Of a DNA stretch of 64,000 nt, positions 30,246 through 52,900 are shown one piece after another. The notes under the pieces are model-generated. The model searched no databases and was not told the origin of the DNA. It saw nothing but the letters and a program-made list of their open reading frames with translations. Numbering within the stretch: the first letter of the stretch is position 1; every line of letters begins with the position of its first letter. This DNA is from Alphaproteobacteria bacterium. GTDB taxonomy: Bacteria; Pseudomonadota; Alphaproteobacteria; CACIAM-22H2. Where the stretch lies: contig JAEULA010000079.1 in the NCBI GenBank assembly GCA_016793165.1, positions 1 through 64,000 of the forward strand, given 5' to 3'. Made by a program: the position numbers and the translations under genes.

Positions 30246-30276
30246 CTCGATCCCCCGCCTCCACCCGCCGGGCCGG

Positions 30277-31290
30277 TCATGGCGCCGGCGACCAGGTCTG
30301 CCCGAACAGCCGCATCCAGTTCCCGCCGATGATCTTGTCGAGCTCGGCCCGGCTGAAACCGCGCTTCGCGAGGCCTTCGACGGCCTTCGGGAAGTCGCTC
30401 GGCGAACGGAACCAGCGGGGCCACTCGGCGAATTTGGGGCTGATGGCGAGGGGACTCTGACGTGCGAACCGTCCCGCGCGCCACCATACGATCTCGGCCT
30501 CGGGCCAGCCCGTGTATAAGTCCGTGCCGAAGCCTCCGTGATCGACGCCGACCAGATCGACGGTCCAGCAGAGCATGTCGCAGAAGGTCTTGAGCGACGA
30601 ATCGGATCCCCCGCGCATCAGGCGGGGATACATGCTGAGACCGATGACGCCGCCGTGCTTCGCCAGCGCCTTGATCAGCGGAGTGGATTTGTTGCGGCGC
30701 TTGAGCTCGATCTCCATGCCGACGAACTCGGACGGGTTGGCGTGCGTGATCGCGACCGGCAGTGACGAAGCCTCGATCGTGTCGAAGCACGTGCGCTCGT
30801 TGCAATGCGAGAGGTCGATGAGCATGCCCAGCTTGTTCATCTCGGCCACGACATTTCGGCCGAAGACCTTCGACAACCCGGCATCGTTGTCTTCCCAACA
30901 CCCGTTCGCGACGTTGTTCTGGATGTTGTAGGTCAGCTGCACGATGCGGACGCCCAGCGCATGGAACGTCCGCACCAGATCGATGTCGTCCTCGAACGGC
31001 GAGGTGTTCTGGAAGCCGAACACGACCGCGGTGCGGCCCGAGCGCGCGATCCGCTCGACGTCGTCGACCGACGTCGCCAGGGCGATCAGATCGCCATGTG
31101 CCTCGAAGTGCCGATGCCACTTGCCGATGACCTTGAGCGTGTCGCGTGCGTCCTCCCAGATCGCAAGCGTGATGTGGACGCAGTCGACGCCGCCGCGCCG
31201 CCACTCCTCGAAGCGCGGACGCTCCGGAAAGCTGTGCTCCATTGCATCGACAAGCAGGCCGCGGCCCGCCTTCGGTTCCTTCTTCGCCAT
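30277..31290 (-). CDS. M19 (membrane dipeptidase/renal dipeptidase) family enzyme, unusual metal site
   Basis: 337 aa from the ATG at 31290, preceded by GGGGGGAG. H162 in IDLSHCNE, H183 in ITHANP and D250 in GVDHGG match conserved M19 ligands. However the N-terminal HxD motif is replaced by DAMEHS, and the usual bridging Glu is Gln at 94 (FGFQNTSP). It may use one metal, bind a different substrate or be catalytically altered; this is inference. The family hydrolyses dipeptides and some amides. It lies beside a Dpp-type importer. Confidence 0.85.
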   Translation of the reverse strand: MAKKEPKAGRGLLVDAMEHSFPERPRFEEWRRGGVDCVHITLAIWEDARDTLKVIGKWHRHFEAHGDLIALATSVDDVERIARSGRTAVVFGFQNTSPFEDDIDLVRTFHALGVRIVQLTYNIQNNVANGCWEDNDAGLSKVFGRNVVAEMNKLGMLIDLSHCNERTCFDTIEASSLPVAITHANPSEFVGMEIELKRRNKSTPLIKALAKHGGVIGLSMYPRLMRGGSDSSLKTFCDMLCWTVDLVGVDHGGFGTDLYTGWPEAEIVWWRAGRFARQSPLAISPKFAEWPRWFRSPSDFPKAVEGLAKRGFSRAELDKIIGGNWMRLFGQTWSPAP

Positions 31291-31349
31291 CTCGTCTCCC
31301 CCCTGTTCCAGAGTCTCGATACGAACGATCCGGTCGGCCGTACCCGTCG

Positions 31350-33410: not shown

Positions 33411-33411
33411 C

Positions 33412-34362
33412 TCAGCCCAGCTTGATCTTCGGGTTGACGCAGGCATAGAGCACGTCGACGACGAAATTGATCACGACGAAGACGATGGCGAGCAGCATCA
33501 CGCCGCCCTGGATCAGGGCGATGTCGCGCGCCGAGATCGCCTGGAACATGGCGAGACCGATGCCGGGCCACGAGAAGACCGTCTCGGTCAGTACCGCGCC
33601 GCTCAGCAGGAAGCCGGCCTGCAGGCCGATCACCGTGATGACCGCCGGGATGGCGTTGGGCAGGGCGTGGCGGAACACGATCCGCCGCTCCGACAGGCCG
33701 CGGCTGCGCGCCGTGCGGATGTAGTCGCTGTTGATCACCTCGAGGAGTGACGACCGCGTCATGCGCGCGATGATCGCCAGCGACCACGCGGCCAGGGTGA
33801 AGGTCGGCAGGATCATGTGGGCGGCAAGGTCGCCGATGCCGCCGCCGTCGACGACCGCATACATGCCGCTCACCGGCAGCAGCTGCAATTCGAGGCCGAA
33901 CACCAGGACCAGGAGCAGGCCCATCCAGAACGGCGGCATGCTGTTGAGGAACAGGACGGCGACGGTCAAGCCGCGGTCACGCGGCGAACCCGGCTTGAGT
34001 GCGACCCAGGTGCCGATTGCGATGCCGGCCGCGGATGCGATCGCCGTCGCCGATACCGCAAGCAGCGCCGTGTTCGCCAGCCGGTCGACGAGGACCCGCG
34101 CGACCGGAAGGCCGAAGAGGGCGGACTGGCCGAGATCGCCGACCGCGAGGTGCCGGAGGTAGGCCCAGTATTGGTGCAGCAGCGAGCGATCGAGTCCGAG
34201 GGCCGCGCGCAGATCACGTCGCGCCTCCTCGGAGGCCGCCGGGCCGAGCAGCGTGTCCGCGATGTCCCCGGGAATGATCTGCGTCAGCAGGAACGTCACA
34301 AGCGTGACGCCGAAGACGACGGGCAGCGCCTGGATGACGCGGCTGATCGTGAAGCTCAACAT
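33412..34362 (-). CDS. Dpp-type ABC transporter permease, DppB-like
   Basis: 316 aa, six hydrophobic segments. N-terminal MLSFTISRVIQALPVVFGVTLVTFLL and the permease signature LAAWSLAIIARMTRSSLLEV are typical of DppB/OppB/GsiC. The Pro at the VLTETVFSWPGIG motif is also conserved. Forms the channel with the DppC-like protein, encoded immediately upstream (20-nt gap). Confidence 0.95.
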   Translation of the reverse strand: MLSFTISRVIQALPVVFGVTLVTFLLTQIIPGDIADTLLGPAASEEARRDLRAALGLDRSLLHQYWAYLRHLAVGDLGQSALFGLPVARVLVDRLANTALLAVSATAIASAAGIAIGTWVALKPGSPRDRGLTVAVLFLNSMPPFWMGLLLVLVFGLELQLLPVSGMYAVVDGGGIGDLAAHMILPTFTLAAWSLAIIARMTRSSLLEVINSDYIRTARSRGLSERRIVFRHALPNAIPAVITVIGLQAGFLLSGAVLTETVFSWPGIGLAMFQAISARDIALIQGGVMLLAIVFVVINFVVDVLYACVNPKIKLG

Positions 34363-36078: not shown

Positions 36079-37710
36079 TCAGCGCAGCCCGAGGCCGGGA
36101 TAGTCGAAGAACACGGAAGGCGCCGCGGCCAGTCCGGTCACACGCTCACGGTAGATGCGCGGCAGGCGGTCCTGGTAGAGGAACACCCAGGGCGCCTCCG
36201 CGGCGACGAGCTCCGCCGCCTCGACGTACAACGCCCGCCTCGTCGGCGTGTCGAGCGCGACGCGCGCACGGTCGAACAGGGCGTCGAGCTTCTCATTCCG
36301 GAACCACCCTCGATTGACGCCCTGCGGCGGCTGCTGCGCGCCGCCGAACATGCGCTCGAGCCAGTACGGCGTCTCCACGCCGGTAGCCCAGCCGTTGAGC
36401 GAGCCGTGGACGTCGTCGCGATAGCCAGGCCCCTCGGCCGCCACGAGCGCAGCGAACTCGAGGAATTGCGGTACGAGGTTGACGCCGACGGCGCGCAGAT
36501 CCTGCTGGATCAGCGCGATGACCTGAGGGGCCAGAGTGAGGCCGGGACCGCTGTTCGGCACGTAGAGGCGCATCGTCACCGGCATCGCGATGCCGGTGGC
36601 CGCCAGAAGCTGCCGCGCCTTCGCGGGGTCGTAGCCATAGGGCTGGGCCATCCCGGGACTGAATATTTCGTTGCCGCCAGGCACGGGGCCGCCGAGCGGC
36701 GCCACCTGTCCGCCGGTGAGCGCGACGATGGCCTGACGGTTGATCGCGAAGTTGAGCGCGCGCCGGAAGTCGGCATTCGCCGTCGGCTGCACGCGGGTGT
36801 TGAGACGGACGAAGTACTGGTTCGGCGGTTCGGGATACTGGATGGCGATGCCCGGTTTGCCTTGGAGCTGCTGCACCTGCTGCGCATTGGCGCTCGGGAT
36901 CACGTCGATGTCGCCCGTCTGCAGCGCCGTCGCCATCGTCGTCGGATCCGGGATCTGCCGGAAGACGACGCGCTCGACCTTGACGGCGCCGCCCCAGTAG
37001 CGGGCCCATCGCCTGAGATCGAGCTGTTGTCCCTGCACGAACCGGTCGAGCGTGAACGGACCGGTGCCCACCGGATTTGCCCCGAGCGCATCGCCCTTGT
37101 GCTCGGACAAGGCGCGCGGACTGACGATGCCCATGCGCCGATCGGCCAGCAGGCGGGGCAGCTCGGCGAACGGTTCCTTGAGCGCGATGACGAAGGACCC
37201 CGCGTCGGGCGCGTCGGTCGACGCGATCCAGCGGGTGAGGAAGGACATCGCACCGGCGGCCCGGGCGTCGTAGGTCGCCGAGCCCTTGTCGATGAGCCTG
37301 TCGAAATTCGCCTTCACCGCCGCGGCATCCAGCGGCGTGCCGTCGTGGAACACGACCCCGGTCCGGATCCGCATCGTGAGCATGCGGCCATCAGCCGAGC
37401 TCGACCACGACTCGGCCAGCCCGGGCGTCAGCGCCGGCGCCCCCTTCGTCTCGGAACGCATGTCCTCGCGCACGAGCGGATCGAAGATGGCGTCGATGAT
37501 CCGCAGCCCGACGGTGCCCGTCAGTCGATGCGGATCGAGGGGCGGGATCGTCCCTTCCGCCCCAATCACGAGGACGCCCGGGCTCGCGGACCACGCCGGC
37601 GCGCCGGCCATGATCGTAAGCAACAGCCCGAGAATAGCCCCAACCCACCCTCGGCGAACGCCGTTGCGGCCGCGGGCAGCGAAAAAAAGACAAACGATCC
37701 TGGCCAGCAT
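36079..37710 (-). CDS. Dpp/Opp-type ABC transporter substrate-binding protein (SBP family 5)
   Basis: 543 aa. A long N-terminal region with a hydrophobic core (residues about 22-40, ending APAWSA) is a signal sequence. The mature part shows LDPHRLTGTVGLRIIDAIFDPL, the WSSSADGRMLTMRIR segment and FHDGTPLDAAAVKANF, all typical of family 5 receptors. GGGGGAA precedes the ATG. It is the first gene of the operon and is divergent from the LysR gene over 147 bp. Ligand unknown. Confidence 0.92.
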   Translation of the reverse strand: MLARIVCLFFAARGRNGVRRGWVGAILGLLLTIMAGAPAWSASPGVLVIGAEGTIPPLDPHRLTGTVGLRIIDAIFDPLVREDMRSETKGAPALTPGLAESWSSSADGRMLTMRIRTGVVFHDGTPLDAAAVKANFDRLIDKGSATYDARAAGAMSFLTRWIASTDAPDAGSFVIALKEPFAELPRLLADRRMGIVSPRALSEHKGDALGANPVGTGPFTLDRFVQGQQLDLRRWARYWGGAVKVERVVFRQIPDPTTMATALQTGDIDVIPSANAQQVQQLQGKPGIAIQYPEPPNQYFVRLNTRVQPTANADFRRALNFAINRQAIVALTGGQVAPLGGPVPGGNEIFSPGMAQPYGYDPAKARQLLAATGIAMPVTMRLYVPNSGPGLTLAPQVIALIQQDLRAVGVNLVPQFLEFAALVAAEGPGYRDDVHGSLNGWATGVETPYWLERMFGGAQQPPQGVNRGWFRNEKLDALFDRARVALDTPTRRALYVEAAELVAAEAPWVFLYQDRLPRIYRERVTGLAAAPSVFFDYPGLGLR

Positions 37711-37829
37711 CGGTTCCCCCAACCACAGCTTCGGCCGCAACGACCCATCGGAGGCGTGATCGCTCCGGCGAACCGCACCGCGCATTCTGCGATCCACCCC
37801 AGCGATCGTCCATCCAGAAGAATGCGAAA

Positions 37830-37839
37830 ACTTATAAGT
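37830..37839. promoter_or_regulatory. Palindrome in the LysR/operon divergent control region
   Basis: ACTTATAAGT is a perfect 10-bp palindrome in the 147-bp gap between the divergent LysR gene and the transport operon. The stretch 37825-37850 is AT-rich in an otherwise GC-rich window. It is a candidate LysR-type binding site; this is inference. Confidence 0.4.
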
Positions 37840-37857
37840 CTTGATTATGCTAGCGGC

Positions 37858-38847
37858 ATGAGCGTCGCCCTCCGCCATCTCCGCGCGTTCGAATGCGTCG
37901 CCAGGCTCGGCAGCTTCACGCGCGCCGCGGAGGAGCTGAAGATCTCGCAGCCGGCGCTCACGATGACGGTGCGCCAACTCGAGGGCCATGTCGGCACGAG
38001 CCTGTTCGATCGCACCACGCGTCGGGTCTCCCTGACGCCGCAGGGCCAGGACTTGGTTCCCGTGGCGCGCCGTCTCCTCGGCGACTTCGACCTCGCAATC
38101 GAGGACGCGCGCTCCCTCGCGAAGCGGCGATCCGGCCGAATCGGCATCGCCTCTGTCATCTCCGTCTCGGTGAAGGTCCTGCCCGGCGTCATCCGCCGCT
38201 TCTGCGCCGCGCATCCGTACACGAGCGTCCACCTCTACGACGGTAACTCTTCCGACGTCCGGGGAAGAGTACGGCGCGACGAAGTGGATCTCGGCTTCTG
38301 CAGCATGGACAGCAACGATCCGGACCTCGACTTCAAACCGCTGTTCCGAGACCAGATCGGGCTGCTGGCGCGCGTCGACCATCAGCTGTTGCGCATGCGC
38401 CGCCAACTCACATGGGCGGATCTCGACGGCCACGACTTTCTCGGCCTCGCGCAGGGAACGGCCACGCGTCCGATCCTCGAGAGCGTCGTGAATCTTCCGG
38501 CTTCGGTGCGATCGCCAAACTACGAGGTATCGAACCAGTCCACGCTCGAAGCGATGATCGAGGAAGGGATGGGCGTGACGATCGTGCCGGCCCTCATGGG
38601 ATCGCGCGGCGCCAACGCGCCGCTCAGGTTCAGGCCTCTTGGCGACCCGGTGATGTGGCGCACGATCCACGTGGTGACCCGCAAGGGACGGAAGCTGTCA
38701 TCCGCCGCATCGGCCCTCGAGGACCTGCTCACCGCCGAGATCCGGCAGATATGCGGTGGCAGCCGCCTGATACAATCCCTGGATCGTCCTTTGCTAGGTA
38801 GCCGCCCCGGTCATCGCGACAGGCGAATGGGGCGTGGACGGGAGTAA
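37858..38847 (+). CDS. LysR-family transcriptional regulator
   Basis: 329 aa. The N-terminal helix-turn-helix (residues 3-62: LRHLRAFECVARLGSFTRAAEELKIS) and effector domain match LysR. Divergent arrangement with the Dpp/TRAP operon strongly suggests it controls that operon in response to the transported compound or a product. The ligand cannot be told. Confidence 0.93.
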   Translation: MSVALRHLRAFECVARLGSFTRAAEELKISQPALTMTVRQLEGHVGTSLFDRTTRRVSLTPQGQDLVPVARRLLGDFDLAIEDARSLAKRRSGRIGIASVISVSVKVLPGVIRRFCAAHPYTSVHLYDGNSSDVRGRVRRDEVDLGFCSMDSNDPDLDFKPLFRDQIGLLARVDHQLLRMRRQLTWADLDGHDFLGLAQGTATRPILESVVNLPASVRSPNYEVSNQSTLEAMIEEGMGVTIVPALMGSRGANAPLRFRPLGDPVMWRTIHVVTRKGRKLSSAASALEDLLTAEIRQICGGSRLIQSLDRPLLGSRPGHRDRRMGRGRE

Positions 38848-39140: not shown

Positions 39141-39755
39141 ATGAAAGAACTGGCGATCCACTCGATCTTCCCGACAACAATCCAGTTCCTGGATATCGAT
39201 CGGGAATTCTCCGCGGCCGAAACTGCATTCCTGTTGGAAACCCAACGCTGCATGCAGCTATCGGAGGGAAACTTCCGCAGCAATGATCGTCGCATTCTGG
39301 ATCGCGACGCGATGTCCATTCTCAGGGGCGAGATACTGTCTGCGGCGCAGACATATCTTCACAAGGTCGTTCGCGCGAGGCCGGAAGTCCAGCCGTGCAT
39401 CACGCAATCTTGGCTGAACATCACCAAATTCGGGCAGCACCATCATCGGCACGCGCATCCGAACAGTTTCATTTCCGGCGTCCTGTACATCAATGCCAAC
39501 GAGGCCACCGACCGGATCTACTTCTTCAAGGACGGCTACGAGCAGATCCAGCCCGTTCCAACGGAGTGGAACAGACACAATGCGACGTCGTGGTACTTCG
39601 CGGTCAAGACGGGCCAGATCGTGCTGTTCCCTTCGCGTCTCTCGCACATGGTCGAAACCAAGGACAACGACGAGACGCGGATCAGCCTGGCCTTCAATAT
39701 CTTCCTGAAAGGCCCTATCGGAGACGAAAGCGCGTTGACGGCGCTTACGCTCTGA
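39141..39755 (+). CDS. Putative 2-oxoglutarate/Fe(II) oxygenase
   Basis: 204 aa from the ATG at 39141, the start fitting family members that begin just before IFPTTIQFLDI; upstream starts exist (for example 39078) without ribosome sites. The iron and co-substrate motif HAHPNSFISGVLYIN (H104, H106) and later LFPSRLSHMVE (H169) with R180 match a family of small 2OG-Fe(II) dioxygenases. Such enzymes hydroxylate proteins or small molecules. It is convergent with the PEP-CTERM gene, overlapping by 11 nt. Whether it acts on the surface proteins nearby is unknown. Confidence 0.8.
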   Translation: MKELAIHSIFPTTIQFLDIDREFSAAETAFLLETQRCMQLSEGNFRSNDRRILDRDAMSILRGEILSAAQTYLHKVVRARPEVQPCITQSWLNITKFGQHHHRHAHPNSFISGVLYINANEATDRIYFFKDGYEQIQPVPTEWNRHNATSWYFAVKTGQIVLFPSRLSHMVETKDNDETRISLAFNIFLKGPIGDESALTALTL

Positions 39756-40494
39756 CCGGGACGTCGCTGCGCCGCCGCCCGAGGTGGAGCCCCGCAAGAC
39801 CGGCTGCGAGCAAGAGCAGCGACGTTGGCGCCGGCACCGGCGTCGCGATCGCCCGTGCGACAAAGAGATCGTCAATGCTGAAGCCGCCACCGAGGTCGCT
39901 CGTGCTGATCGACAAGCCCGCGATGTCCGGCCCGCCCGGATTGGAAAGCGCCAGCGCCATCAAACCGGCACCGTCGTTCAGAACCACGCCCAACGACGTC
40001 CCGGTCGCGTCGAACGCCTCGATCGTGGTGAGGCCGGCCGCAACGAACTCTCCGATCGTGAACGCCACTACCGGTACCGCGAACCCGAATAGAATCGAGA
40101 CTGGTGACGCGAAAGAGGCGCCGTCGGAACCGCCCGTGATTACCGGGCTGCTGCCAAACGCGGCATCGTTTGCAGTGATGGCATAGCTCAAGATGTCGGA
40201 AACCAGCGCGAGAGTCCCCGGCGTCGGCGAGCCGCTCAGGGAGATCGGCGACCCGGCGACCAGACTCTGGCCGGCAAAGTAGCCGGCAAAGGCGATCGTC
40301 AACCCGTCGAAGGGCGCACCGGCGAACGCGTAGGCCGGATTGACGGTGGATTCCGGTACCTCCGAGAACGTCACAAGCGGTGATGCGTCGACGACTCCCG
40401 TTTGCGACGACAGCGTCAATGCCGCCTTCGCATCGCCGGCACAAAGAACCCCTGCAATCGCGGCGGCTGAAAGGAGCATGCGCACATGTGACAT
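39745..40494 (-). CDS. PEP-CTERM-type exported protein
   Basis: 249 aa from the ATG at 40494. A signal peptide ends near AGDAKA. The C terminus has the sorting signal VPAPTSLLLLAAGLAGLHLG followed by RRR, a PEP-CTERM tripartite tail recognised by exosortases. The body is rich in small residues, typical of PEP-CTERM proteins (for example FDGLTIAFAGYFAGQ). No exosortase gene lies in the window. It is on the same strand as, and 88 nt after, the SecA-like gene, so it may share the transcript of the giant protein locus. Confidence 0.85.
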   Translation of the reverse strand: MSHVRMLLSAAAIAGVLCAGDAKAALTLSSQTGVVDASPLVTFSEVPESTVNPAYAFAGAPFDGLTIAFAGYFAGQSLVAGSPISLSGSPTPGTLALVSDILSYAITANDAAFGSSPVITGGSDGASFASPVSILFGFAVPVVAFTIGEFVAAGLTTIEAFDATGTSLGVVLNDGAGLMALALSNPGGPDIAGLSISTSDLGGGFSIDDLFVARAIATPVPAPTSLLLLAAGLAGLHLGRRRSDVPVRA

Positions 40495-40582
40495 CGAGTT
40501 ACCCTCTAAGATTGCGCTCAATGCGATTTTCGGCCGCAGGCCCGCCAGCCATCTTCATCGTTCTCGGCGGGCATGCAACATC

Positions 40583-42529
40583 TCATTCGGGCTTTCCAGC
40601 GAATGCGATTGCGTCTCCCAGAAACTCGTCCGAGTGAAGAAGATCTCGACGCATTCGCGCATGCAGCCGCTCGGCACGCCACTGTGCGATCCTTGCAATC
40701 CTTGCGATCACAGGCCCGCCGCAATGCGCGGCAACCCGCCTCGCGGACGACAGTCCATGCCAATCCAGCAACGCGTCATCCAGTGCGACATAAGAGCAGA
40801 CGACTCCCGGGTCGCCCTGGCGACCGCACCGACCTGCGAGCTGCCGATCGATACGGCGTGACTCGTGCGGCTCGGTGATGAGGACGTGAAGTCCACCCAG
40901 CGCGGCCACGCCCTCGGCGAGACGTATGTCCGTTCCGCGTCCGGCCATGTTGGTCGCCACGGTGATCGCGCCACGGGCACCTGCCTGCGCGATGATCGAA
41001 GCCTCGGCGGCATCCTGCGCGGCGCTCAGGACCACATGGGGTAGACCGTGAGCGCGGAGCACGGCGCTCGCGCGTTCCGCACCGGCAACCGTCCGGGTCC
41101 CGATCAGGACCGGCGCGCGGCGCGCGTGGATCGACCGGATTTGCCGCGCGATGGCCTCCCACTTCTCGGTGCCCGAGACGTATCCACGTATCGCATGCCA
41201 CCGCTTGCGATCCGGCCGATGCGGGGCGATCGCGGCAACTGGAAGGCGGTAAGTCCGCCACAGTTCGCCGGCCACTTCGCGCAGCGTGCCGCTCATGCCC
41301 GCAAGGCAGCGGTACCGCCGAAAGAAGCGCTGATAGGTCATGCGCGCGGTCGTTGACCGCCGTGGCGACAACGCGAGGCCTTCCTTGCGCTCCACCATTT
41401 CCTGCAAGCCCTCGCTCCAGGTGCGGTCCGGCAGGATGCGGCCCGTGAACTCGTCGACGATCTCCGCCTTGCCATCGCGGACGAGATAATTCTCGTCGCG
41501 GCGCACGACGCGCAGCGCCGTGAGCGCCAGCTCGATCAATCGCTCGCGCTCGGCGATTTCGTTCCACGGAGGTCCCAGCGCCGCCGCCGTCGCCAAGCCC
41601 CGCTGCGCATGCGGCAACAGCGCGATGCGCCGCTCGCGCGCCAGCAACAGATAGTCGCGACCCTCGCGCATCGCCGCCGCAAGGCTCAGCGCCCGATCGA
41701 ACACCGCCTGGTCGCGGTCCTCGGGGATCTCGGCCGATAGGATGAGCGGCGTTCGCGCCTCGTCGATCAGCACGCTGTCAGCCTCGTCGACGATCGCGAA
41801 ATGCAGTCCGCGAAGCAGCGACGTCCCGCTCGCTCCGGACAGCCTCGCCACCTTGTGTCCAAATGCGCCCTGCCGCCGGCCGAGCGCCAGGCGGTCGCGC
41901 ATGTAGTCGAAGGCGAGTTCCTTGCTCGTGCATAGGGTGATGTCGCAGCGATAGGCCGCCGCGCGATCGCGGCGCTCGGTCTTCTCCGTCACGAGACCAC
42001 AGGACAGTCCTAGGCGCCGATAGAGGGGTCCCATCTCGCGCGCGTCGCGCTCTGCGAGGTAGCCGTTGACGGTCACGAGATGCGCCGGGGTGCCGGCGAG
42101 GCCCGACACCGATGCCGCCAACGCAGCGGTCAGCGTCTTGCCCTCGCCCGTCGCCATTTCGACCGCCATCCCGCGCAGAGCCGCGGCGGCGCCCAGAATC
42201 TGCGACGGAAAAGCCTGCAGGGCGAGCGCTCGGCGCGCGGCTTCGCTCGCGACGGCGAGGGCGTTGGCAAGGCTCGCGTCGGAGCGATTGGCCGTCGCGC
42301 GAAGAGCCGCGCGCGCGGCGCGGATCTCCTTGTCGAAGGCGGCTTCGTCGAGGCGCTCCATGGAGGCAATTCGGGCTTCGGCCTGAGCGAGGATCGGGGT
42401 CGGCCCCCCTCCGCGTCGCCATCGCCGCGCCGCGGCGACGGCGGCAGCCGCGGCGCGATCGAGCAGCGTCTCGCGCGGAACATGCCGCTCGGGGAAGTCG
42501 CGAAGTTGGGGAAGAACGAGATCAGACAC
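40583..42529 (-). CDS. Short SecA-like translocase ATPase
   Basis: 648 aa (bacterial SecA is about 850-900). Walker A MATGEGKT (125-132), Walker B VDEAD (247-251) with VLIDEARTPLI, motif VI-like TNMAGRGTDI (526-535) and the GRCGRQGDPG motif (566-575) are intact. After it only about 75 residues remain, so the helical scaffold/wing domains and the Zn-binding C-terminal tail are missing. GTG start overlaps the M50-HlyD gene by 8 nt. It is likely not the housekeeping SecA; a special export role for the neighbouring surface proteins is inferred. Confidence 0.9.
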   Translation of the reverse strand: MSDLVLPQLRDFPERHVPRETLLDRAAAAAVAAARRWRRGGGPTPILAQAEARIASMERLDEAAFDKEIRAARAALRATANRSDASLANALAVASEAARRALALQAFPSQILGAAAALRGMAVEMATGEGKTLTAALAASVSGLAGTPAHLVTVNGYLAERDAREMGPLYRRLGLSCGLVTEKTERRDRAAAYRCDITLCTSKELAFDYMRDRLALGRRQGAFGHKVARLSGASGTSLLRGLHFAIVDEADSVLIDEARTPLILSAEIPEDRDQAVFDRALSLAAAMREGRDYLLLARERRIALLPHAQRGLATAAALGPPWNEIAERERLIELALTALRVVRRDENYLVRDGKAEIVDEFTGRILPDRTWSEGLQEMVERKEGLALSPRRSTTARMTYQRFFRRYRCLAGMSGTLREVAGELWRTYRLPVAAIAPHRPDRKRWHAIRGYVSGTEKWEAIARQIRSIHARRAPVLIGTRTVAGAERASAVLRAHGLPHVVLSAAQDAAEASIIAQAGARGAITVATNMAGRGTDIRLAEGVAALGGLHVLITEPHESRRIDRQLAGRCGRQGDPGVVCSYVALDDALLDWHGLSSARRVAAHCGGPVIARIARIAQWRAERLHARMRRDLLHSDEFLGDAIAFAGKPE

Positions 42530-44669
42530 GGAGCGACCGAAGCATGGACTGCCTCAAGGCGCGAAGGATTCGCCATGCGACCGGCTCCGAGCCGAGATCG
42601 AAGCGGGCGTAGACGTGACCGCCGATCCGATCCCCCGGCGTGGGTCGATCGGGGCGCACCTCGATCTCGAACCACCGTTCGAGCGGGCGTTCACCACGCG
42701 GACTCGACGGGTCGAGCAGCATCGGCCCGCCGCCGGTCGCGGCCAATGCCGGCGCCGGCGCCTTGTCGAGCGCCGACGGAACCTCTCGCGCCAGACGCGC
42801 GGGGACGGAGTGATCAATCGTCTCGGTGTGGCGCAGCTCGACGCCAATCATCCGGCTGCGCACGAGGTCGATCGTCGCCTGAGGGACCACGACACGAATG
42901 CCGACATCGGCATCGCCGATGACGTATCCCAGCAACTCGCCTTGGCGCACGAAGCGGCCGGGTAGCGTATCCGCCGCGGGCATGACGAAGCGGCCGGCCT
43001 GTGCCGCCGTGATCACGAGGTCGCGCTCCCGCTGCTCGGCGCGTGCGAGTTGCGCACGCGCGCGACCGAGCTGCTCCTCGGCCAGACGGGCCTGCGCACG
43101 ATCGATGAGATTGACGGCGTTGAACCGGCTCTCGATCACCGCGGCTTGCGCTCGATAGACATCCACCTGCGCCGACGTTACGGCGTCTTCGAGCTGGATC
43201 ACCGGTTGCCCCGCCGCGACAAGCTGATCGGGCGTCGCGAGAAGGCGCAGCACGAACCCGTCGGCTCGGGCCCGCACGACGGATTCCTCCGGCACCCACA
43301 CCACGCCATGCGCGACCGCGGCATAGGGCAATGGCAATGCGAAGAGCGCAGCAGCAGCAGCCGCGAAGGCGCCACCGGTCACGGCCATCGCCCGTCGCCG
43401 CCGCCGCGCGAGCGCCGGGCTCGACAGGATGAATCGCATCGCACGCAGCAGCGGCAGCACGAGCATCTGCACCAGGGCCCACGCGGCGATCAGAATGCCG
43501 AGCCCGAGGAATTGCTGGGCGACGAGAAAGGCGATCGCGAGCGTGACGCTGAGGCGATAGATCGTCGCGGTCACGCCGTAGCCGAGCAGCCACTTGGCCT
43601 CGCCGGGCGCCACGACCGGCGATTGGCTCTCCGTCATGCCGAAGGCCCGACGTTGGATCAGGTACAGCATGTAGCGCCGCGAGCGCTGGTCGAGATTGGC
43701 GATCCCGAGCAGATCCCCGAACACATAGTACCCGTCGAAGCGCAGCAACGGGTTGGCATTGAAGACGAGCGTGGAGACGCCGCACAGCAGGATGAGATTG
43801 AAGCACGCCGCGCGCGCCAAGCCCGGCGGCAACTCGACCCACGCGATCATGGCCAGTGCCGCGATCGCCAGCTCCGTCATGATTCCCGCCGCGCCGACCA
43901 GCATCCGGCGCCAGCGCTCGGGAAAGGCGCTCGACGACGACGCGTCGACATAGGGTACCGGGAAGAACACGAGCAGCATGACGCCGGTCTCGTGCACCTC
44001 GCCGCCGCCGAGGCGCGTCGCGTAGGCATGGCCGAGCTCGTGCAGCGCCTTGCTCAGCGGATAGAGCAGCGCCAGCATCAGCACGTTGTAGCTCGAGAAC
44101 ACCCGGTCGCTGATATTGGCCGTGAGCTCCGGCCAGTGCATCGCCCCGAGGATCGCCGCGGCGACGATGAGGGCCAGCCAGAGCGCGAATCCTGCTTTGG
44201 TGAAGATGGGTCGCGCGAGCCACAGCGTGGCGTCGAGGAAGCGCGAGGGATCGAATGCGGGCAATCGCAGCGCCATCGGGTTCGTCAAGCGTGCCAGCAG
44301 GCGTCGACTGCTCTCGCGCTCCGCTCGGCGCTCCAGCTCCTCCATGTCGGGCGGCAGTGCCGCGTTGAGGAGATCCCCCTGATGGAGCTGCACCAGCAGC
44401 CGGACGGCATCTCCTTTGGTCGGTCGTTCGGCGCCGAGCATTTCGCCCACCGCAGACAGGATTTCGGTCATCGTGCGCCGGCCGTCCATGCGGCAGAGCA
44501 TCAGATTGGCCGCCGGAGAGACGCGAAAGAAGCGGCCGCTCTGGTGGTCCTGCAGCACAAACCACACCTGTCCGCGATAGACATGCCGGTGCACCTGGGC
44601 ATGCCTCCGCAGTCGCGGCTTGAGATCGGCGACCCGATACCAGCTGGAGGCGAAGGAGTCGCCGCTCAC
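42522..44669 (-). CDS. PqqD-like/M50 protease/HlyD fusion protein
   Basis: 715 aa. GTG at 44669 overlaps the stop of the preceding gene as GTGA, which decides the start. A PqqD-like winged domain (about 10-105; FRVSPAANLMLCRMDG) is followed by a multi-pass membrane region with the M50 metalloprotease motif HELGH (210-214) and the second motif NANPLLRFDGYY (D312). The C-terminal part (about 455-700) is a HlyD-like adapter with lipoyl and coiled-coil parts. Site-2-type proteases cleave membrane-embedded peptides. The PqqD domain, known to bind peptides, may select a substrate; this is inference. Confidence 0.9.
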   Translation of the reverse strand: MSGDSFASSWYRVADLKPRLRRHAQVHRHVYRGQVWFVLQDHQSGRFFRVSPAANLMLCRMDGRRTMTEILSAVGEMLGAERPTKGDAVRLLVQLHQGDLLNAALPPDMEELERRAERESSRRLLARLTNPMALRLPAFDPSRFLDATLWLARPIFTKAGFALWLALIVAAAILGAMHWPELTANISDRVFSSYNVLMLALLYPLSKALHELGHAYATRLGGGEVHETGVMLLVFFPVPYVDASSSSAFPERWRRMLVGAAGIMTELAIAALAMIAWVELPPGLARAACFNLILLCGVSTLVFNANPLLRFDGYYVFGDLLGIANLDQRSRRYMLYLIQRRAFGMTESQSPVVAPGEAKWLLGYGVTATIYRLSVTLAIAFLVAQQFLGLGILIAAWALVQMLVLPLLRAMRFILSSPALARRRRRAMAVTGGAFAAAAAALFALPLPYAAVAHGVVWVPEESVVRARADGFVLRLLATPDQLVAAGQPVIQLEDAVTSAQVDVYRAQAAVIESRFNAVNLIDRAQARLAEEQLGRARAQLARAEQRERDLVITAAQAGRFVMPAADTLPGRFVRQGELLGYVIGDADVGIRVVVPQATIDLVRSRMIGVELRHTETIDHSVPARLAREVPSALDKAPAPALAATGGGPMLLDPSSPRGERPLERWFEIEVRPDRPTPGDRIGGHVYARFDLGSEPVAWRILRALRQSMLRSLRV

Positions 44670-46543
44670 GGGAGCCACGCCCAGGATTCGATCCGGATCC
44701 AATGGAGCACCGGGCGCATCCAGATCCAGACGAGGCGCGCGTCGCCGGCCTCGATATGGCCAATACCCTCCATGCCGGGTCGCAAGCGCGCCTCGCCGCG
44801 CGTCAGCCTGGCGTCGACCCGAAATGTCATCCGTCCGTCCCGGGCCTCGGCGACCGGTGTCACGCGCTCGACGACGAACGGCAACGCCACGTCCGGCAGG
44901 GCCGAGACGAGCACGGCGCCGCGCTGACCGGGCGTTGTGTCGGCGATCTGACTCTCGTGCACACGCAGCTCGACGCGATAGTCGTCGAGCGGTGCGATCT
45001 CGAACATCACGTCGCCGCGACGAACCGGCGCCCCGATGGACTGGCTGAGATCGCCGGACACCACGAGCCCGTCGAAGGGCGCAGCCAGTGTGGTGCGCGC
45101 GAGTTGCTCGTCTACGAGGCGGATCTGGGCATTCGCCTGATCGATCAGGGCACGGAACCGCGCGGTCTCGGCGCGCTGTCCCTGGCTCAGGGCCTGGTCG
45201 TAGCCCGCGCGATGCTGCGCGCGCTCCGTCACCCAGCGCAGGCGCTCGAGCACGAGATCGCGATCATCGAGACTGACCACCGGCGCGCCGGCCCGCACCA
45301 TGTCTCCCGCCCTGACCTTGGCGTCCGCGACGAAGCCGTCGAACGGCGCGGCAATGACCCGGCGGACGGCGCCTTCGATCCGCGCGTCGGCACTGATCCG
45401 GTAGGGGCCGCGAGCAAATTCCCCGAACAGGCCGCAGGCGATCAGGCCGGCCGCGGCAAGCTTCAGGCCCCAGTGACCGGGGCCGAAGAGGCGAACCGCG
45501 AGACGCCCGACGGAGTCGATCGCCTTCAACGGCAGCGGACGGTCGATCTCTCGCTTGTCCAGCAAGGCCGGACCCACGATCGCCACGACGGCTTCAGCCA
45601 GATCGACCGTGACCTGGTCGAACGGCTGATCCGGTGGTCGCTCGAGGGTCACCGCGCCGACCACCCTGTCTTTGACGAGCATCGGGATCGTCAGCGCCTG
45701 GCCGCCACCGCCATGCGCACGCAGCAGCTCGGCATGAGCGCGGGTCAGAGGCTCGTCGTCCGCATCGGCGGCGGGAACCAGCACGAGGCGGCGCTGATCG
45801 ATCGCTTCGTCCATCGCATCAGCGAGATGCCGGACGAGATCCATCGTCCTTCCGAATTGCGCGCTGTGCGAAATGCCGACGACTTTCGTCTGATGGCGTC
45901 TTGTGAAGCCGATGCTCACGCGCTCGCAGCCGAGGCGGCTGGCTATTTCGGTCGCTGCGAGCCGGCAGGCCGGCACGAATCCCTGTTGCTCGAGGGACGC
46001 CGCAATGAGCTGCAAGGCGAGCCCCGTTCGGTCGGCGGCATGCCGCAGCGCCGCGGCGTCTCCGCCACGCCGGCGCTCCTTCATCCAGGCGGAGGCCCAT
46101 TGCAGCTGGCGCATGGCATGACGCGGATCGCGGCCGGGCGCCGTCGAGATGTCGAGCGCGATGGCGGCAATGGCGACGCCGTCGATCTGGATCGGATAGG
46201 CGACACGGGTTGGCGCATCAGGAGCGGTGGACGGCGCCGGTTGCACAAGTCCGCGCTTGCCGTCGATCGCCGCCCGTGCCGCCGAGATCAGGCCGGCATC
46301 GGCGGGCGCACCGACCGGGGTGAAGACGACCAGCGGAGAACCCTCCGGTCCCGCATCGAGCCAAACCAGGACGCCGCCGATCGTGCCGGCGACCATGCGG
46401 CAGGTCAGGCCCAGCCACGCCTCCGCAAAGGACCTGTCGTCCGTCGCTGCGGTCAGGTCGCGCCAGAGCGCGTGCTCCAGCACCGTCGCGCCGTCACGTC
46501 CCGTGGGCGCCGGTCCTAGCGTTTCAGGATTGGAGCCGGACAT
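44666..46543 (-). CDS. GAF-HlyD fusion periplasmic adapter
   Basis: 625 aa. Two GAF-like domains in the cytoplasmic part (about 20-160 and 165-325), one transmembrane helix (about 363-380, GHWGLKLAAAGLIACGLFG), then a HlyD-type periplasmic adapter: barrel-sandwich part APFDGFVADAKVRAGD, a coiled-coil hairpin about 430-490 and TLAAPFDGLVVSGDLS. Adapters of this kind link an inner membrane exporter to an outer membrane channel. Fusing sensory GAF domains to an adapter is unusual. It starts 11 nt after DUF3467 stops. Confidence 0.88.
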   Translation of the reverse strand: MSGSNPETLGPAPTGRDGATVLEHALWRDLTAATDDRSFAEAWLGLTCRMVAGTIGGVLVWLDAGPEGSPLVVFTPVGAPADAGLISAARAAIDGKRGLVQPAPSTAPDAPTRVAYPIQIDGVAIAAIALDISTAPGRDPRHAMRQLQWASAWMKERRRGGDAAALRHAADRTGLALQLIAASLEQQGFVPACRLAATEIASRLGCERVSIGFTRRHQTKVVGISHSAQFGRTMDLVRHLADAMDEAIDQRRLVLVPAADADDEPLTRAHAELLRAHGGGGQALTIPMLVKDRVVGAVTLERPPDQPFDQVTVDLAEAVVAIVGPALLDKREIDRPLPLKAIDSVGRLAVRLFGPGHWGLKLAAAGLIACGLFGEFARGPYRISADARIEGAVRRVIAAPFDGFVADAKVRAGDMVRAGAPVVSLDDRDLVLERLRWVTERAQHRAGYDQALSQGQRAETARFRALIDQANAQIRLVDEQLARTTLAAPFDGLVVSGDLSQSIGAPVRRGDVMFEIAPLDDYRVELRVHESQIADTTPGQRGAVLVSALPDVALPFVVERVTPVAEARDGRMTFRVDARLTRGEARLRPGMEGIGHIEAGDARLVWIWMRPVLHWIRIESWAWLP

Positions 46544-46554
46544 GACCGACGCCG

Positions 46555-46854
46555 TCAGACGTCGAGCGCGCCGTATCGGGATTCGTACTCGCGCAGGACC
46601 CCGTTGAGCGCCAGGGCGAGCCGCTTGGCCGCAAAGGGCGACAGGATCACACGATTGCTGAGCGACACCGAGAGCGTGCCGCTCGCTCCGTTGTTCCAAC
46701 TCTGATTGGTGCCGAAGAACAGGTCGACCTGCTCGCGCGAACTATGGATGTTCACGACATTCGCGAAGCTCGTCGTCATGCGCGTGTCATCCCATTGCAG
46801 CTGCGCTTCGTGCGCAACGGATGCAGGAGGGCGGGAGGTCTCGGTTTCGGACAT
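46555..46854 (-). CDS. DUF3467-family protein
   Basis: 99 aa. The motif VNIHSSREQVDLFFGTNQ and the C-terminal SNRVILSPFAAKRLALALNGVL are characteristic of DUF3467. The molecular role of this family is unknown, and it is often found beside secretion-type genes. It lies 113 nt downstream of the giant gene and 11 nt upstream of the GAF-HlyD gene, so it is probably part of the same unit. Confidence 0.88.
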   Translation of the reverse strand: MSETETSRPPASVAHEAQLQWDDTRMTTSFANVVNIHSSREQVDLFFGTNQSWNNGASGTLSVSLSNRVILSPFAAKRLALALNGVLREYESRYGALDV

Positions 46855-46967: not shown

Positions 46968-49900
46968 TCAGCTCCTGACCACTGGTGGGGCGGAGCGCCG
47001 CGCCTCGGCGAGGGCCGGGGCCATGGCCCATCGCTCCCCCAGATCGTCGTCCTCGATCCAGGCCCGCGCGTCACCGGTCGCCGGCGACGTGCCGGCAAGC
47101 CAGGCGCCGCTCTCCTCGTCGAACTGCACCGCCGGCGGCGGCGGCGCGGGTGGCTTGGCGGCGATCTGCTGCGTGACGATGCGGACGTCGCCGGACTGCA
47201 CAAGTTGAATGGTGCTCGCCGAACCGGGCAGTACGACCGTCGCCTTGGGGAGCACGGGCTTCGCGACCGTGACCGGGGACGATCCAAGCCTGACCGACGA
47301 TGCAATGGGCGTCGGCGAGCCGACCGGCACCGCCGATATCACCGGGGTCGACGGCGCGGAAGCGCTTGGCGCCGCGGGGAGGGAAGCGCCCGCGGTCGCA
47401 GTCGGCGCCGGGATGACGACTGGCGGCGTGCCGATCGGGGGCAGCACGATAGGAGCGGGCGTCCCGATGACGGCCTTCGTCGTCATCGTCGCCGAGGCGG
47501 CATTGTCGCTGTCCTTGACCTGGACGCTGATCGTGAAATTCGACTGGGTCAGATAGGTGTGGGCGACGGTGAAGCCGCGAGCACCCGATGCGATCGGCAC
47601 CAGAGTCGCGGAACTGCTGTCGCCCCATCTGATCACCAGCGTGTGCCCATCGAGCGCCCCGGGATCGCTGAACGTTCCCTCGATCGACATCGGCTCCCCG
47701 GGCTTGATCGCGCCCGGTACCGCCGCCGTATTGGTCAATGCGACCAGGACGGGCGAAACGTTGCGGACCGTCACCGTCGCCGCGGCGGATGCGGCCGCAT
47801 CGGCATTGTCGGTGAGCGTTGCGTTGACGACGAACGCGTCTCCCGCGCCGCCGGACGGGTTGTTCAGATAGCGATGGGTCGCCGTGAAGAGCCGGGCCGC
47901 TTCGTCGACCGTCGCCGCCGAGCTCGATCCATCGCCCCAGTTGATGGTCGCCGCATGCGTGTCGAGCGTTCCGGCATCGGAAAAGCTGCCGGTGATCGTG
48001 ACCACACCGCCTTCGTTGATCGTCGCCTTGTCCGTCGTGAGCGCCGTCACGATCGGTGCGGCATTCCTCACCGCAACCGCGGCCGCTGCGGCGCCCTCGC
48101 CACCGTCCTGATCGACGACCCGTGCCATGATCACGTAGCCCGGCCGGCCGGGGTTGTCGTCGAGGTAACGGTGCGCCGCGCTGAAGTCGCGCACGGCGCC
48201 ATCCGGCGTCAGGGTCTCACTGGTGCCGTCCCCCCAATCGATGAAGACGCTATGCAGATCCAGCGAGCCCGGATCCGCAAACGCACCGGTCACGACGACG
48301 ATGCCATTCTCGTCGATCGCCGTCGCGTCCAGGGCGAGAGGCGCGAGCACCGGCCCCACGTTCCGGACGATTGTCGAGGTCGCGGCGGCAGCGACTCTGC
48401 CATCGGAGGCGGTCAGCGTGCCGCCGATCGCGAATGCGCCTTCCGGTGCACCGGCCGGATTGTCGAGATAGCGATGCGACGCGGCGAAGCTCTTTGCGCC
48501 CTCGTCGACGGTACCGGTGCTCGTCGTGCCGTCACCCCAATCGATCACGACGCCATGCGTGGCCGAGGGAGTCGGATCGGCGAAGGTTCCGGTCACGAAG
48601 ACCATGCCGTCTTCGTCGACGGCGCTCGACATCGTCCGGAACTCGACGAGCGACAGCGGTGTCGCACTCACCGATGCCACCGCGCTTGCGCTGACCGTTG
48701 CGCCGGCATTGTCGGCGAGCAAGACGCTGACCGGATAGGTTCGGATGACGCCTCCCGCCGGGGCACCGGGCTCCACGGAATAGACATGCGTCGCCACGAA
48801 GCTGCGCGTCGCCTCGTCGACGGCGGCGTCACTGCTGGTCGCGTCGCCCCAGTCGACCGTCACGGTGTGCGTATCGACCGCACCGGCATCGGCAAAGCTG
48901 CCGGAGAGCGTCAGCACGCCGCCCGCCGCGACGAGTATCGGCGACAAAGCGATCTCGCCAAGGGTCGGCGCCAGATTCTCGACCGCGACGCCGATGGCTG
49001 CCTCGCCTGTCGCTCCGTCTTCGTCGGCAATGACGGCGCGGATCGTGAACGTCCCGGACGCCGACCCTGCCGGATCGTCGAGATAGACATGCGTGCCGGT
49101 GAACGAGCGGCCCGCCTCGTCGACGACACCGGCCGTCACCGTGCCATCACCCCAGTCGATGGACACCGAGTGCGCGTCGACGGCGCCGCGATCTGAGAAG
49201 CTTCCGACGACGGTGACGATTTCGCCCTCGTCGATCGTCGAACGGTCGGCATCGAACACCGCGACGACCGGCGCGATGTTCCTGACCGAGATCGGCGCGA
49301 CGGCGCTTGCCGGTTCGCCGGAGCTAGCCGCTACCGTCGCCGTGACTAGGAAGCTGCCGTCGGGCCGGCCGGCAGGGTTGTCGAGATAGTCGTGGGTGGC
49401 AAAGAAGCCGCGCGTCGCAGGATCGATCGGCACCACGACCGGCGCCGTGCCGTCGCCCCAGTCGATCGTCACCGTCGGTGTCGCCAGCAAGCTCAAATCC
49501 GAGATCTCGCCGGTAAGAGCGGCCGTACCGCCCTCGTCGATTGCCGCCTTGACGAAGCCGAAATCGACCGCGACGGCCGGGGCCCTCGCAACGGAGAGGC
49601 TCGTCGAGGCCGTCGCCGTGGCGCCGCCCTGGTCCGCGACCGTTGCGACGATGATGTAGCCGCCTTCATCGGCGTAGAGATGCTCCGCGGCGAATTCGGT
49701 CGCACCCATGGGCAGGACCAACGATTCCGTTTGTCCGTCGCCCCAACGGATATCGACGCGGAACGTATCCTGCGCGCCAGGATCCGACACCGTTCCCGAT
49801 AGGCGGGCCAATTGGCCTTCGACAATCGGGGCAGGCGCCGCCAGGTTCAGGCTCGGCGCCAGGTTGGTGACGGTGATCGCATGCGTCGTGGAGGTCACGC

Positions 49901-52900
49901 CGTCGGAATCGATGGCCTCGACGCCGATTTGGTAGTCGCCGGCGACGGCGTAGACATGAACCAAGGTCTGCTCGGCGCCGGTGTAGCTCTCGATCGAGCC
50001 ATCGGCCCAATCGACGTTCCAGCGCTCGACGATCTGCGGCGGCGGGTGGCTCGCGTCGAGGATCAGGGTGTAGGGCGAGCCCTGCGAGACCGTAGAACTG
50101 CCCGTGACCGTGAGAACTTGCGGCACATCCGTCACGACAACGGTCGCGCTGAACCGGGCGATGCCGCCATCGTCGTCGATCACCTGGCCGCTGACCTGAT
50201 GCGATCCGCGACTTGCGATCGCGCTCGCGGGAACCAAGAAGGTCTGCGGGCCGGTCAATCGAGTGGTCGTGTGGTCGAAGACGCCGTCGTCGTCGAAGTC
50301 GAGCTTGTAGATGAAGCCTGTCGTGTCGTCCGCCGCGGCGGCGTCATCCGGCACGATGGTGAGCGTCGCGTTGCTTCCCTGCGTGACGGAAGCCGGCGGC
50401 GCGATCGCGAGATCGGGCGCAAGGTTGTCGACGATCACCCGCCGCGACGCCGTCGACGTCACCACGGTCCCGTCGTCGTATGTCACCCTGACCTTCGGAC
50501 TGAACGTGCCGCTGTCGGTGATCAGTCCGCCTTGGGCCCACCCCACCGTGATGGTCCGGCCCGTGAACGAGCCGTCGAAGGTGCCGTCGCCGTCGACATC
50601 CCACGCGTAGTTCGTGGGCGTGCCTGGCGCGGTGGCGGTCATCGTCAGGCTGGAGCCCTCCGCGATCCGGTAGACGCCGCCGACGCTGACTTGAGAGGCG
50701 AGCACATTCACGCCGATCTCGAACGGGGGTGCCGTCCAATCCGGATCCGTCGCCTCCATCGCATCGTCGCGGACCCCGACCGCGACCGCGTAGGTTCCCG
50801 GCTCGTAGTAGACATGAGTCGCCGATGCGGCGGTGCCGCCGAGGGATTCGGTGACTCCATCGCCCCAGTCCACCCTCCACTCGGTCGCCGCTTCGTCGCC
50901 GGCCTGGGCGATACCGAAATTCACGATGACCGGAGACCCGACCTTCGTCGTGGCAGGACCCGAGGCGGTGACGGTCGGCGCGACGCGATTCACCTTCAGC
51001 GTGGTGTTGATCGTCGTCGACAACCCGTCCGCGTTGGTCGCGGTCACGCCCACCAGATAGGCCTCGTCGCGCGCCCGCGTGATGTTCAAGGCGGCGAGAT
51101 CCTCCCATGTCACGGTCACGGTGGTGCCGATGGCATCGCCATAACGGCCATCGCCGTTGATGTCCCAGTTCAAGTCCTCGAACAGCGCATTCTGGGTGCC
51201 CATGGGCAGGACGCTGGCGGACAGAACGAGATCCGCGCCCTCGTCGATCGCGAAGCTGCCGACCGTGATCACCGGCGAGGAGACCACAGAGGCGACCTCG
51301 AAGCCGGCGAGTCGGACGGCTCCCCTGCCGTTGTTCTGGACGGTCAACGGGGTCCGCGAATAGGTCTGCGGTGATCCGGCGATATTGCGCGAGTCGAAGC
51401 TCAGCTTGGCCTCGGCGGCGGTGCCGCCGTCCTCGAGCCCGATCTCCGATTCGCTCGAGAGCCCTTCCCCATTGACGTAGACGGAGTCGATGCCGTCGCC
51501 GGTGGTCAGGATGACGGATGATCCCGAACCGAGTCCGACGATGTCGAAACGGTCGTTCCCCGACCCGGCCGTCACCTTCAGCACCGAAGCGTCCCGGGTG
51601 GCCCCGCTGCTGAAGCGATTGTCGCCGGAACCCAGATCGATGGTCGTCGCCAGACTCATGTCGAGCAGGCTCACGATGTCCGCGCCGGCACCGGTGCTGA
51701 TCCCGAGCGTCGGCACAGGCACCGGGGTGGCCGATGCGGTCAGAGTCGGCACCGCCAGCAGCGAAATCGAGTCGGCGCCGTTGCCGGTCGTGATGTTGAC
51801 CGTCTCGATCGCCTGGAACGTGACGACCGACGATTGCGGCGCCAAGCCGTCCCGCTTCGCGACGGAGATCTTCGCGACACCGCCGTTCTGCGCTCCGACC
51901 CCCGGGCTGCCGACATAGGCGAAAAGATCGCCGGCTGCGTTGCGCGGCGCCACCACGACATCCAGCGGCGCGGCCAGGCCACCAACGCCCGCCACGTCGT
52001 TGCGCAGGATCTGCATGAACTGAAGCGAGCCGGTGTCGAGCGTGCCGTCCGCGAGGCGCTCGAATGCCAGCACGGCATTCGAGCCCCTGGCCGCGACCAA
52101 GACGTACTCGCCGTCGGCGGTCGCCGCGATGCCATCGGGCCGCGACAGGCCGCTGACGCCCAGCTTCAGGTTCCGGACGGTCTGGATGTGATCGAGGGCG
52201 CCAAGCGCGCCGACCGCGAACACCGAGATGCTGTTGCCCGACTCGTTCGCCACGTAGAGGAACTTCCGGTCCGGGCTGAGCGTCATGTCGACCGGGCGAT
52301 TCAATCCGGTGCCGTCGGCCGTCGTAACTGTGGAGCGGATCGCCTGCGTGCCCGGATCGAGCGAATAGACGCGGTTGGTGGTGCTGCTGACGGCGAACAT
52401 CAGGTCGACGCTCTCCGACAGGGCGCGGTCGCCGTCGTCCGCGAGGAGGACCTTGGTCAGCTTCAAGTCGTTGCTCACCGTCGTGACGGCGGTCGGAGCC
52501 CCGGCGGTCGTCGCGCGAGTGAATTCCAGCAGGCCGGATGCACCGACCGCGATGACGGTCTTCGAGTCGCCCGACACCGCGAGGCTGCTGAAATAGCCAT
52601 TGGCGGCGGCGGTCGTGTTGGCGACATGGACCAGATCGCCGTTGATATCGCGGCTGAACGTCTCCAACTCGCCGGTCGCATCGTTGCCGACAAAGACGGT
52701 CTTGCCGTCCGGGGCGATCGCTATGCTGGTCGCGCCTGTCAGTGACGGCAGGGTGCCGGTGCCGCCGACAAGGTATTGACGCTCGCTCATGTCCGAGGTG
52801 TTGACGCTGACGAGCACGCCGCTCGTCTTGCTGAGGCCGTAGATCTGCTTGCCGTCGGGACTGAGTGCGACCGAATCCAGCGACGGGAGATGTCCGCCGC

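Follow-up and report, generated by a model that had tools for sequence, protein, structure and literature searches.

The 64,000-nucleotide stretch analyzed here (the window) covers positions 1 to 64,000 of contig JAEULA010000079.1 in the Alphaproteobacteria bacterium assembly GCA_016793165.1, and carries on its minus strand a gene whose product joins a PqqD/RRE-like domain, an M50 site-2 protease and a HlyD-type periplasmic adapter in a single chain. We propose that this fusion probably forms the inner-membrane core of a machine dedicated to exporting and maturing giant proteins with a short N-terminal LEPR tag. The proposal starts from what can be observed directly, namely the domain make-up of the fusion, the conservation of its catalytic residues, the order of the operon, the link to a SecA-like ATPase gene and the co-occurrence of tag and fusion across genomes. 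The fusion and its parts are arranged as follows:

42522-44669, minus strand: PqqD/RRE-like, M50 site-2 protease and HlyD adapter fusion of 715 amino acids, with a GTG start at 44669 and the stop at 42522
44361-44648, minus strand: PqqD/RRE-like domain (residues 8-103), from a profile match and a structural match
44028-44042, minus strand: HELGH zinc-binding motif (residues 210-214)
43731-43760, minus strand: NANPLLRFDG motif (residues 304-313)
42525-43334, minus strand: HlyD/MexA-type periplasmic adapter part (residues 446-715), matching MacA (4dk1, E = 1.3e-10)

The GTG start overlaps the stop codon of the HlyD-GAF gene that lies upstream. Homologues of equal length align with the fusion from residue 1. 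The three-part fusion reported in the initial annotation is real and has the coordinates given there, on the minus strand. A chance fusion or misassembly was rejected because full-length relatives occur in 80 genome loci and on several complete plasmids. The AlphaFold2 model, built from 69 aligned rows, has a mean predicted local distance difference test score (pLDDT) of 87.0 and a predicted template modeling score of 0.67; an alignment-free prediction reached a pLDDT of 41.6 and was not used. Transmembrane prediction gave six stretches for the fusion, one for the upstream adapter (MFP1) and none for the four other proteins tested from the same gene cassette, so that the fusion is predicted to be the sole polytopic (multi-spanning) membrane protein of the cassette.

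A profile of 82 fusion relatives searched against the PDB aligned residues 16-102 with PqqD (3g2b, E = 1.6e-4), with a weak match of the same part to TbiB1 (5v1u, E = 0.35). In a VIA search with the model, residues 8-103 aligned structurally with part of GdmN entries (Z ~10, root-mean-square deviation 2.2), a part that we read as RRE/PqqD-like. Sequence and model together indicate a PqqD/RRE-like winged-helix fold for the N-terminal domain, for which peptide binding is putative. For the protease core, PF02163 scored 24.8 bits, just under the Pfam cut-off of 27.2, and the profile of relatives weakly matched the putative zinc metalloprotease MJ0392 (3b4r, E = 0.016). Among NCBIfam models, NF041824, for the intramembrane protease of daptides, matched best, covering residues 29-421 with 145.7 bits (cut-off 300), and NF058609, the YydH/LiaK epipeptide protease, scored 35.3 bits (cut-off 225). 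In the adapter part PF13437 scored 30.4 bits, and Foldseek and VIA searches with the model matched MacA/MexA structures to residues ~445-704 (Z ~14 in VIA), which places this part among the HlyD/MFP adapters, a fold of barrel-sandwich and beta-barrel domains with an alpha hairpin. The VIA matches listed, taken up by one domain, include no M50 structure, which carries no weight for or against the protease core. The initial annotation had placed a domain of the peptide-recognition type, an M50 protease with intact motifs and an adapter in one chain; all three are present, and the chain is linked genetically to giant proteins.

The HELGH and NANPLLRFDG motifs had also been described as intact, and this is borne out by H210, E211, H214, N304 and D312 being identical in all 82 aligned relatives, with N306 kept in 77. 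D312 is a candidate third zinc ligand. The invariance of H210, E211 and H214 is in part selected, because one of the two patterns used to scan for the 80 genome loci contained HExxH; this bias touches those 80 loci, and D312 and the plasmid relatives are free of it. An HExxH motif, a distant aspartate in an NPxxxxDG-type motif and a membrane core together assign the protein to the M50 site-2 proteases. A purely structural use, in which the M50 fold works as a platform or channel in the membrane without any need for proteolysis, would suit a protein that alone in its cassette is polytopic. However, HExxH and the distant aspartate are kept in 82 of 82 relatives belonging to two deeply split clades, which is more than a scaffold would need, and we consider such a use very unlikely.

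The fusion lies in a cassette whose genes, all on the minus strand and either overlapping or separated by short gaps, run in the order giant, DUF3467, MFP1 (HlyD-GAF), fusion and SecA-like:

46968-64000 within the window, minus strand: giant repeat protein (PKD and other repeats), its frame open (to 65630) up to the contig end at 65631 and its N-terminus missing
46555-46854, minus strand: small DUF3467 protein of 99 amino acids, 46% identical to a Thalassospira DUF3467 protein (E = 1.2e-20)
44666-46543, minus strand: HlyD adapter with an N-terminal GAF region (MFP1), GAF and HlyD both found in Pfam, with a likely ATG at 46543
40583-42529, minus strand: SecA-like ATPase of 648 amino acids, with a DEAD motor, a preprotein cross-linking domain and a second motor domain, ending early in the scaffold helix

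The DUF3467 protein might be a SecB-like chaperone, which is a guess. A second cassette in the same genome, on contig C88 (L004, 3500-19999; L030), comprises a giant, HlyD-GAF, a fusion 47% identical to that of the window, a SecA-like gene, a short adapter and an oxygenase gene, the last probably a 2-oxoglutarate oxygenase. Oxygenase-like genes follow the short adapter in several cassettes (L025, 24626-25666; L004; L167), and such an enzyme might modify the giant. The initial annotation was silent on the SecA-like gene, on DUF3467, on the second cassette and on the tag that the giants share.

The conservation of this arrangement was surveyed by a pattern scan of genome contigs, from which the best 80 of at least 560 fusion relatives were kept, with cassette genes called by home-made profiles on six-frame open reading frames. 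A tblastn search of plasmids with the fusion returned 73 records, 13 of them covering at least 80% of the query. The conserved cassette consists of the giant, either DUF3467 or SapC, the HlyD-GAF adapter, the fusion, a SecA-like ATPase that is truncated, a short adapter and sometimes TolC, and is spread over alpha-, beta- and gammaproteobacteria, Nitrospirota, Thermodesulfobacteriota, Myxococcota and Deferribacterota. Among the best 80 loci, MFP1 lies upstream in 78, a SecA-like gene stands beside the fusion in 76 and a short adapter is present in 52; DUF3467 was called in 26, SapC in 21 and either in 46, all of these counts being lower bounds because many loci are cut by contig ends. SapC-family genes occur in many cassettes (L026, L038, L043, L045, L060, L066, L071, L078 and others), mostly where DUF3467 was not found, and the two may replace each other. 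When only those of the best 80 loci with at least 2.5 kilobases of downstream sequence are counted, the SecA-like gene adjoins the fusion in 67 of 69; in the two exceptions (L051 and L087) it is found elsewhere in the genome, apart from the housekeeping SecA, at 934 and 823 bits. It is also present in seven of eight other loci (the window, C88 and six plasmids) and in 14 of 16 divergent loci from the lower-scoring part of a phylum-wide sample described below, in two of these as a weak or divergent match (189 and 51 bits). An ABC ATPase within 7 kilobases on the same strand was found in only 3 of 88 loci; together with the prediction that the fusion is the sole polytopic protein, this argues that the fusion itself is the inner-membrane station.

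A sister cassette, which we call class (ii), has the order giant, TolC, short adapter, HlyD, fusion and was found in Azospirillum, Niveispirillum, Burkholderia and on an enterobacterial (E. coli) plasmid, with giants of the DUF4347/Ig type. It resembles the window type in having a homologous fusion, two adapters and a giant with a cognate LExRxxFDA tag, and differs from it in lacking the SecA-like gene and DUF3467 and in placing its fusion in a separate clade. The class (ii) fusions form a distant group, scoring ~85-360 bits against the fusion profile (A1), and in a tree of 82 rows, made by a quick method and containing long branches, six of them are split off by a fully supported branch. Since this class does without SecA, the constant pair is the fusion and the tag.

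The giants of both cassette kinds start with one short motif, LEPRxLLSAD or LExRxxFDA. The LEPR-XLL domain (NF012209, LEPR-8K) is the N-terminal tag of the giants tied to the SecA-type cassette: it scored over its cut-off in 49 of 51 genomes or records with a SecA-type fusion (drawn from 48 fusion loci and six plasmid records, this genome included, with two further loci left out), on open frames of up to 15,167 amino acids. The longest tagged open frame seen spans 19,427 amino acids, with its LEPR-XLL motif at 112865-112924 of contig C115 in genome G406. Background occurrence is low, with matches in 3 of 289 genomes of the window's class, this genome being one of the three, and, among 14 named control genomes, in Deinobacterium chartae alone. 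In the second class, the giants open with ALEPRMMFDAA, ALEPRFMFDAA, ALESRQLFDGAA, ALEARYMFDAA or ALEPRVVYDAS, which NF012209 sees weakly (~13 bits in three of five; cut-off 17). A motif model (A4) was made from the N-terminal segments of six second-class giants, some of the training sequences lying in or near four of the sampled genomes. A4 matched 13 of the 289 class genomes at E ≤0.05; at E ≤0.005 it matched nine of the 12 with a sister fusion and none of the 277 others (Fisher p = 6.4e-15), and with the four training-related genomes removed it still matched five of eight (p = 3.7e-9).

The association was also examined in an even sample of 398 genomes across the phylum, of which 91 carry the fusion, 37 of them at 480 bits or above, a line drawn after the scores had been seen. 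With NF012209 at E ≤0.002 as the tag threshold, 47 genomes were positive, spread over many families, and 46 of them carry the fusion; the tag was found in one of the 307 fusion-negative genomes (Fisher p = 1.8e-33). It was present in 33 of the 37 high-scoring fusion genomes and in 13 of the 54 other fusion genomes. These p-values overstate independence because the species are related. Occurrence of the fusion in unrelated loci without giants had been named in the initial annotation as what would refute its reading. Across genomes, the N-terminal tag of the giants and the fusion are found together almost exclusively; at least one sister-type fusion, on a Magnetospirillum plasmid, stands beside an ELWxxDGT protein of ~490 amino acids instead of a giant.

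On the KD-12 hydropathy scale, none of 38 parsed tag-bearing N-termini (39 examined) reached 2.0, the level taken for a signal-peptide-like core, and the controls scored 2.38 and 2.64. At the other end of the giants, FDExxGxFV- and IDWG-like patterns recur among 43 loci examined; two loose motifs of this kind occur in the last 150 residues of 10 and 14 of the 43, compared with 2.1% and 7.6% of internal windows. The patterns were picked from the same data after inspection, and a C-terminal signal is not relied on here.

The SecA-like protein is clearly related to SecA, with Pfam matches to PF07517 (288 bits), PF01043 and PF21090, and the Walker A sequence TGEGKT is kept in seven of seven such proteins. 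No Pfam match to the SecA wing/scaffold was found in it. Aligned with the SecA of the same genome (on contig C113, itself cut by the contig end), it lacks an insertion of 34 residues in its second motor domain, and it can be aligned no further than the initial part of the scaffold helix; its matches to SecA structures in the PDB end near SecA residue 557. The wing domain, the two-helix finger and the C-terminal linker, with boundaries where we take them to lie in SecA, are therefore missing. The genome holds two SecA-like copies (contigs C1 and C88) besides the housekeeping SecA on C113. A paralogue beside a housekeeping SecA is what an accessory Sec (SecA2) system would have, but the full domain set including wing/scaffold is absent, and SecA2 models gave 334-422 bits against cut-offs of 725-1100.

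One explanation for this protein is that it acts as an accessory, SecA2-type motor that feeds the giants through the ordinary SecYEG channel, the fusion being a later processing and handover station. The two motor domains and the domain that cross-links to preproteins are in place, and all of these cells have Sec channels. Canonical SecA, however, brings a wing domain and two-helix finger to SecY, and the SecA-like protein stops before both; moreover, the giants have no signal-peptide-like core and the sister cassette has no SecA-like gene. We judge this route unlikely. The initial annotation proposed that the fusion could release a tethered substrate during export. In the form considered here, the giant stays tethered in the envelope after export and is freed later by the M50 protease. 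The intact catalytic residues and membrane location agree with that proposal, and proteolytic release is known from adhesin systems; against it, no transmembrane-like stretch was seen around the tag, nothing points to a retention module, the common element is an N-terminal tag, and a protease fused to a cytoplasmic-type recognition domain suits early processing. Later release is, in our estimation, distinctly improbable. A cut that removes the N-terminal tag while the giant is being exported would suit the anatomy at least as well as tethered release.

Under the reading we favor, in which the fusion is the core of an export and maturation machine, the cytoplasmic PqqD/RRE domain would bind the LEPR tag, and in cassettes of the window type the minimal SecA-like ATPase would feed the chain, which has no signal peptide. 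The fusion would form the entry or dock the chain at the entry; its HlyD part would work with the other two adapters and a channel of the TolC type to carry the chain out in one step; and the M50 site would make its cut at the tag or close to it, so that the machine lets go of the mature giant. A more specific version is a new secretion type in which a minimal SecA pushes tagged giants, thousands of residues long and devoid of a signal peptide, into a fusion acting as receptor, membrane gate and tag-cutting protease, and from there through adapters and TolC, with neither SecY nor an ABC transporter. This is a tentative possibility, less likely than not.

Several observations weigh against the favored reading. 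No SecA-like gene was found in any of 14 sister loci; nor was one found beside the fusion or elsewhere on the plasmid in Thalassospira, where the plasmid alone was covered, or beside the fusion in L229 and L230, the two remaining divergent loci. Four of the 37 high-scoring fusion genomes lack the tag at the threshold used, and the missing signal peptide was judged by hydropathy only. TolC adjoins the cassette in just five of the best 80 genome loci and two of the eight others, counts that come from a model of just two sequences and may leave out the majority. None stands beside the window cassette; TolC is annotated next to the Methylosinus and Thalassospira cassettes. The tag of the window giant is absent from its contig, where the frame runs off the end. 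Finally, tag binding, tag cleavage and export by the cassette are inferred from genes. L229, L230 and L028 have in common a short adapter (with TolC in two) and no SecA-like gene beside the fusion, and their fusions score with the SecA-linked group. A LEPR-XLL start (37.7 bits) is found at 362206-362402 of contig C59 in the genome of the window, in a frame that runs off the contig end; it fits the window giant and may supply the N-terminus that this giant lacks, though the contigs are not joined.

Parts of the machine resemble known systems. The daptide protease MpaP (NF041824) likewise joins a PqqD-type domain to an M50 core, with a proposed role in leader-peptide processing. Unlike MpaP and YydH/LiaK, the fusion adds an adapter, scores far below the cut-offs of both families and has a giant rather than a small precursor peptide as partner. 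An ordinary maturation and export set for ribosomally synthesized and post-translationally modified peptides that merely adjoins a giant gene would account for the PqqD-M50 architecture, onto which NF041824 aligns over the N-terminal half of the fusion. Besides the low score, such a set is contradicted by the tag-fusion link holding across genome samples, and neither a precursor peptide nor a modifying enzyme was a regular neighbor in the annotated cassettes read, though no dedicated search was made; we give it hardly any credence. The cassette shares with type I secretion its HlyD-type adapters, TolC in some cassettes and very large repeat/RTX substrates that carry no classical signal peptide, but has no ABC transporter and adds the M50-adapter fusion, a SecA-like ATPase in the window type and a shared N-terminal tag. 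The accessory Sec system of Gram-positive bacteria devotes a second SecA to large surface proteins; the SecA-like protein of the cassette, by contrast, has neither wing domain nor two-helix finger, and its gene neighbors are adapters and a site-2 protease.

Elsewhere in the window, importers of the opp/dpp type are the matches for an ABC ATPase (31350-33446) and a permease (33412-34362). An SBP_bac_5 solute-binding protein at 36079-38670 has ~340 extra N-terminal residues without a family match, and the start codon of this frame may be wrong. A 459-amino-acid frame at 30242-31621 without a Pfam or NCBIfam match adjoins a CrtO-like oxidoreductase. The initial annotation also connected the fusion with PEP-CTERM proteins, for which exosortase is the known enzyme. 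We set this link aside: the neighbor at 39745-40521 is a marginal match (20.5 versus 20.7 bits) and did not recur as part of the cassette among the annotated relatives read, and an exosortase (217 bits) is encoded elsewhere in the genome.

To our knowledge, the export of proteins of 5,000-19,000 residues without a classical signal from Gram-negative bacteria is mostly not understood. A full-text literature search, with few subscription papers and no bioRxiv preprints in its scope, found no description of the cassette, which is apparently a widespread, undescribed gene set. The sources searched assign no machine to LEPR-XLL, and the two papers found that mention it do so only for a Vibrio giant and in a list entry (PMC10868602, PMC9611531). 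Each part of the cassette has already been annotated somewhere and LEPR-XLL has been named; we regard their combination as a novel form of tripartite export, with a real chance of being a separate secretion type. That one N-terminal motif, one protease-adapter fusion and often one SecA-like motor make up a system is a claim open to test. If it is true, the LEPR-XLL motif would gain a machine, PqqD domains would gain a role outside peptide natural products, and SecA would be seen working with an adapter/TolC route.

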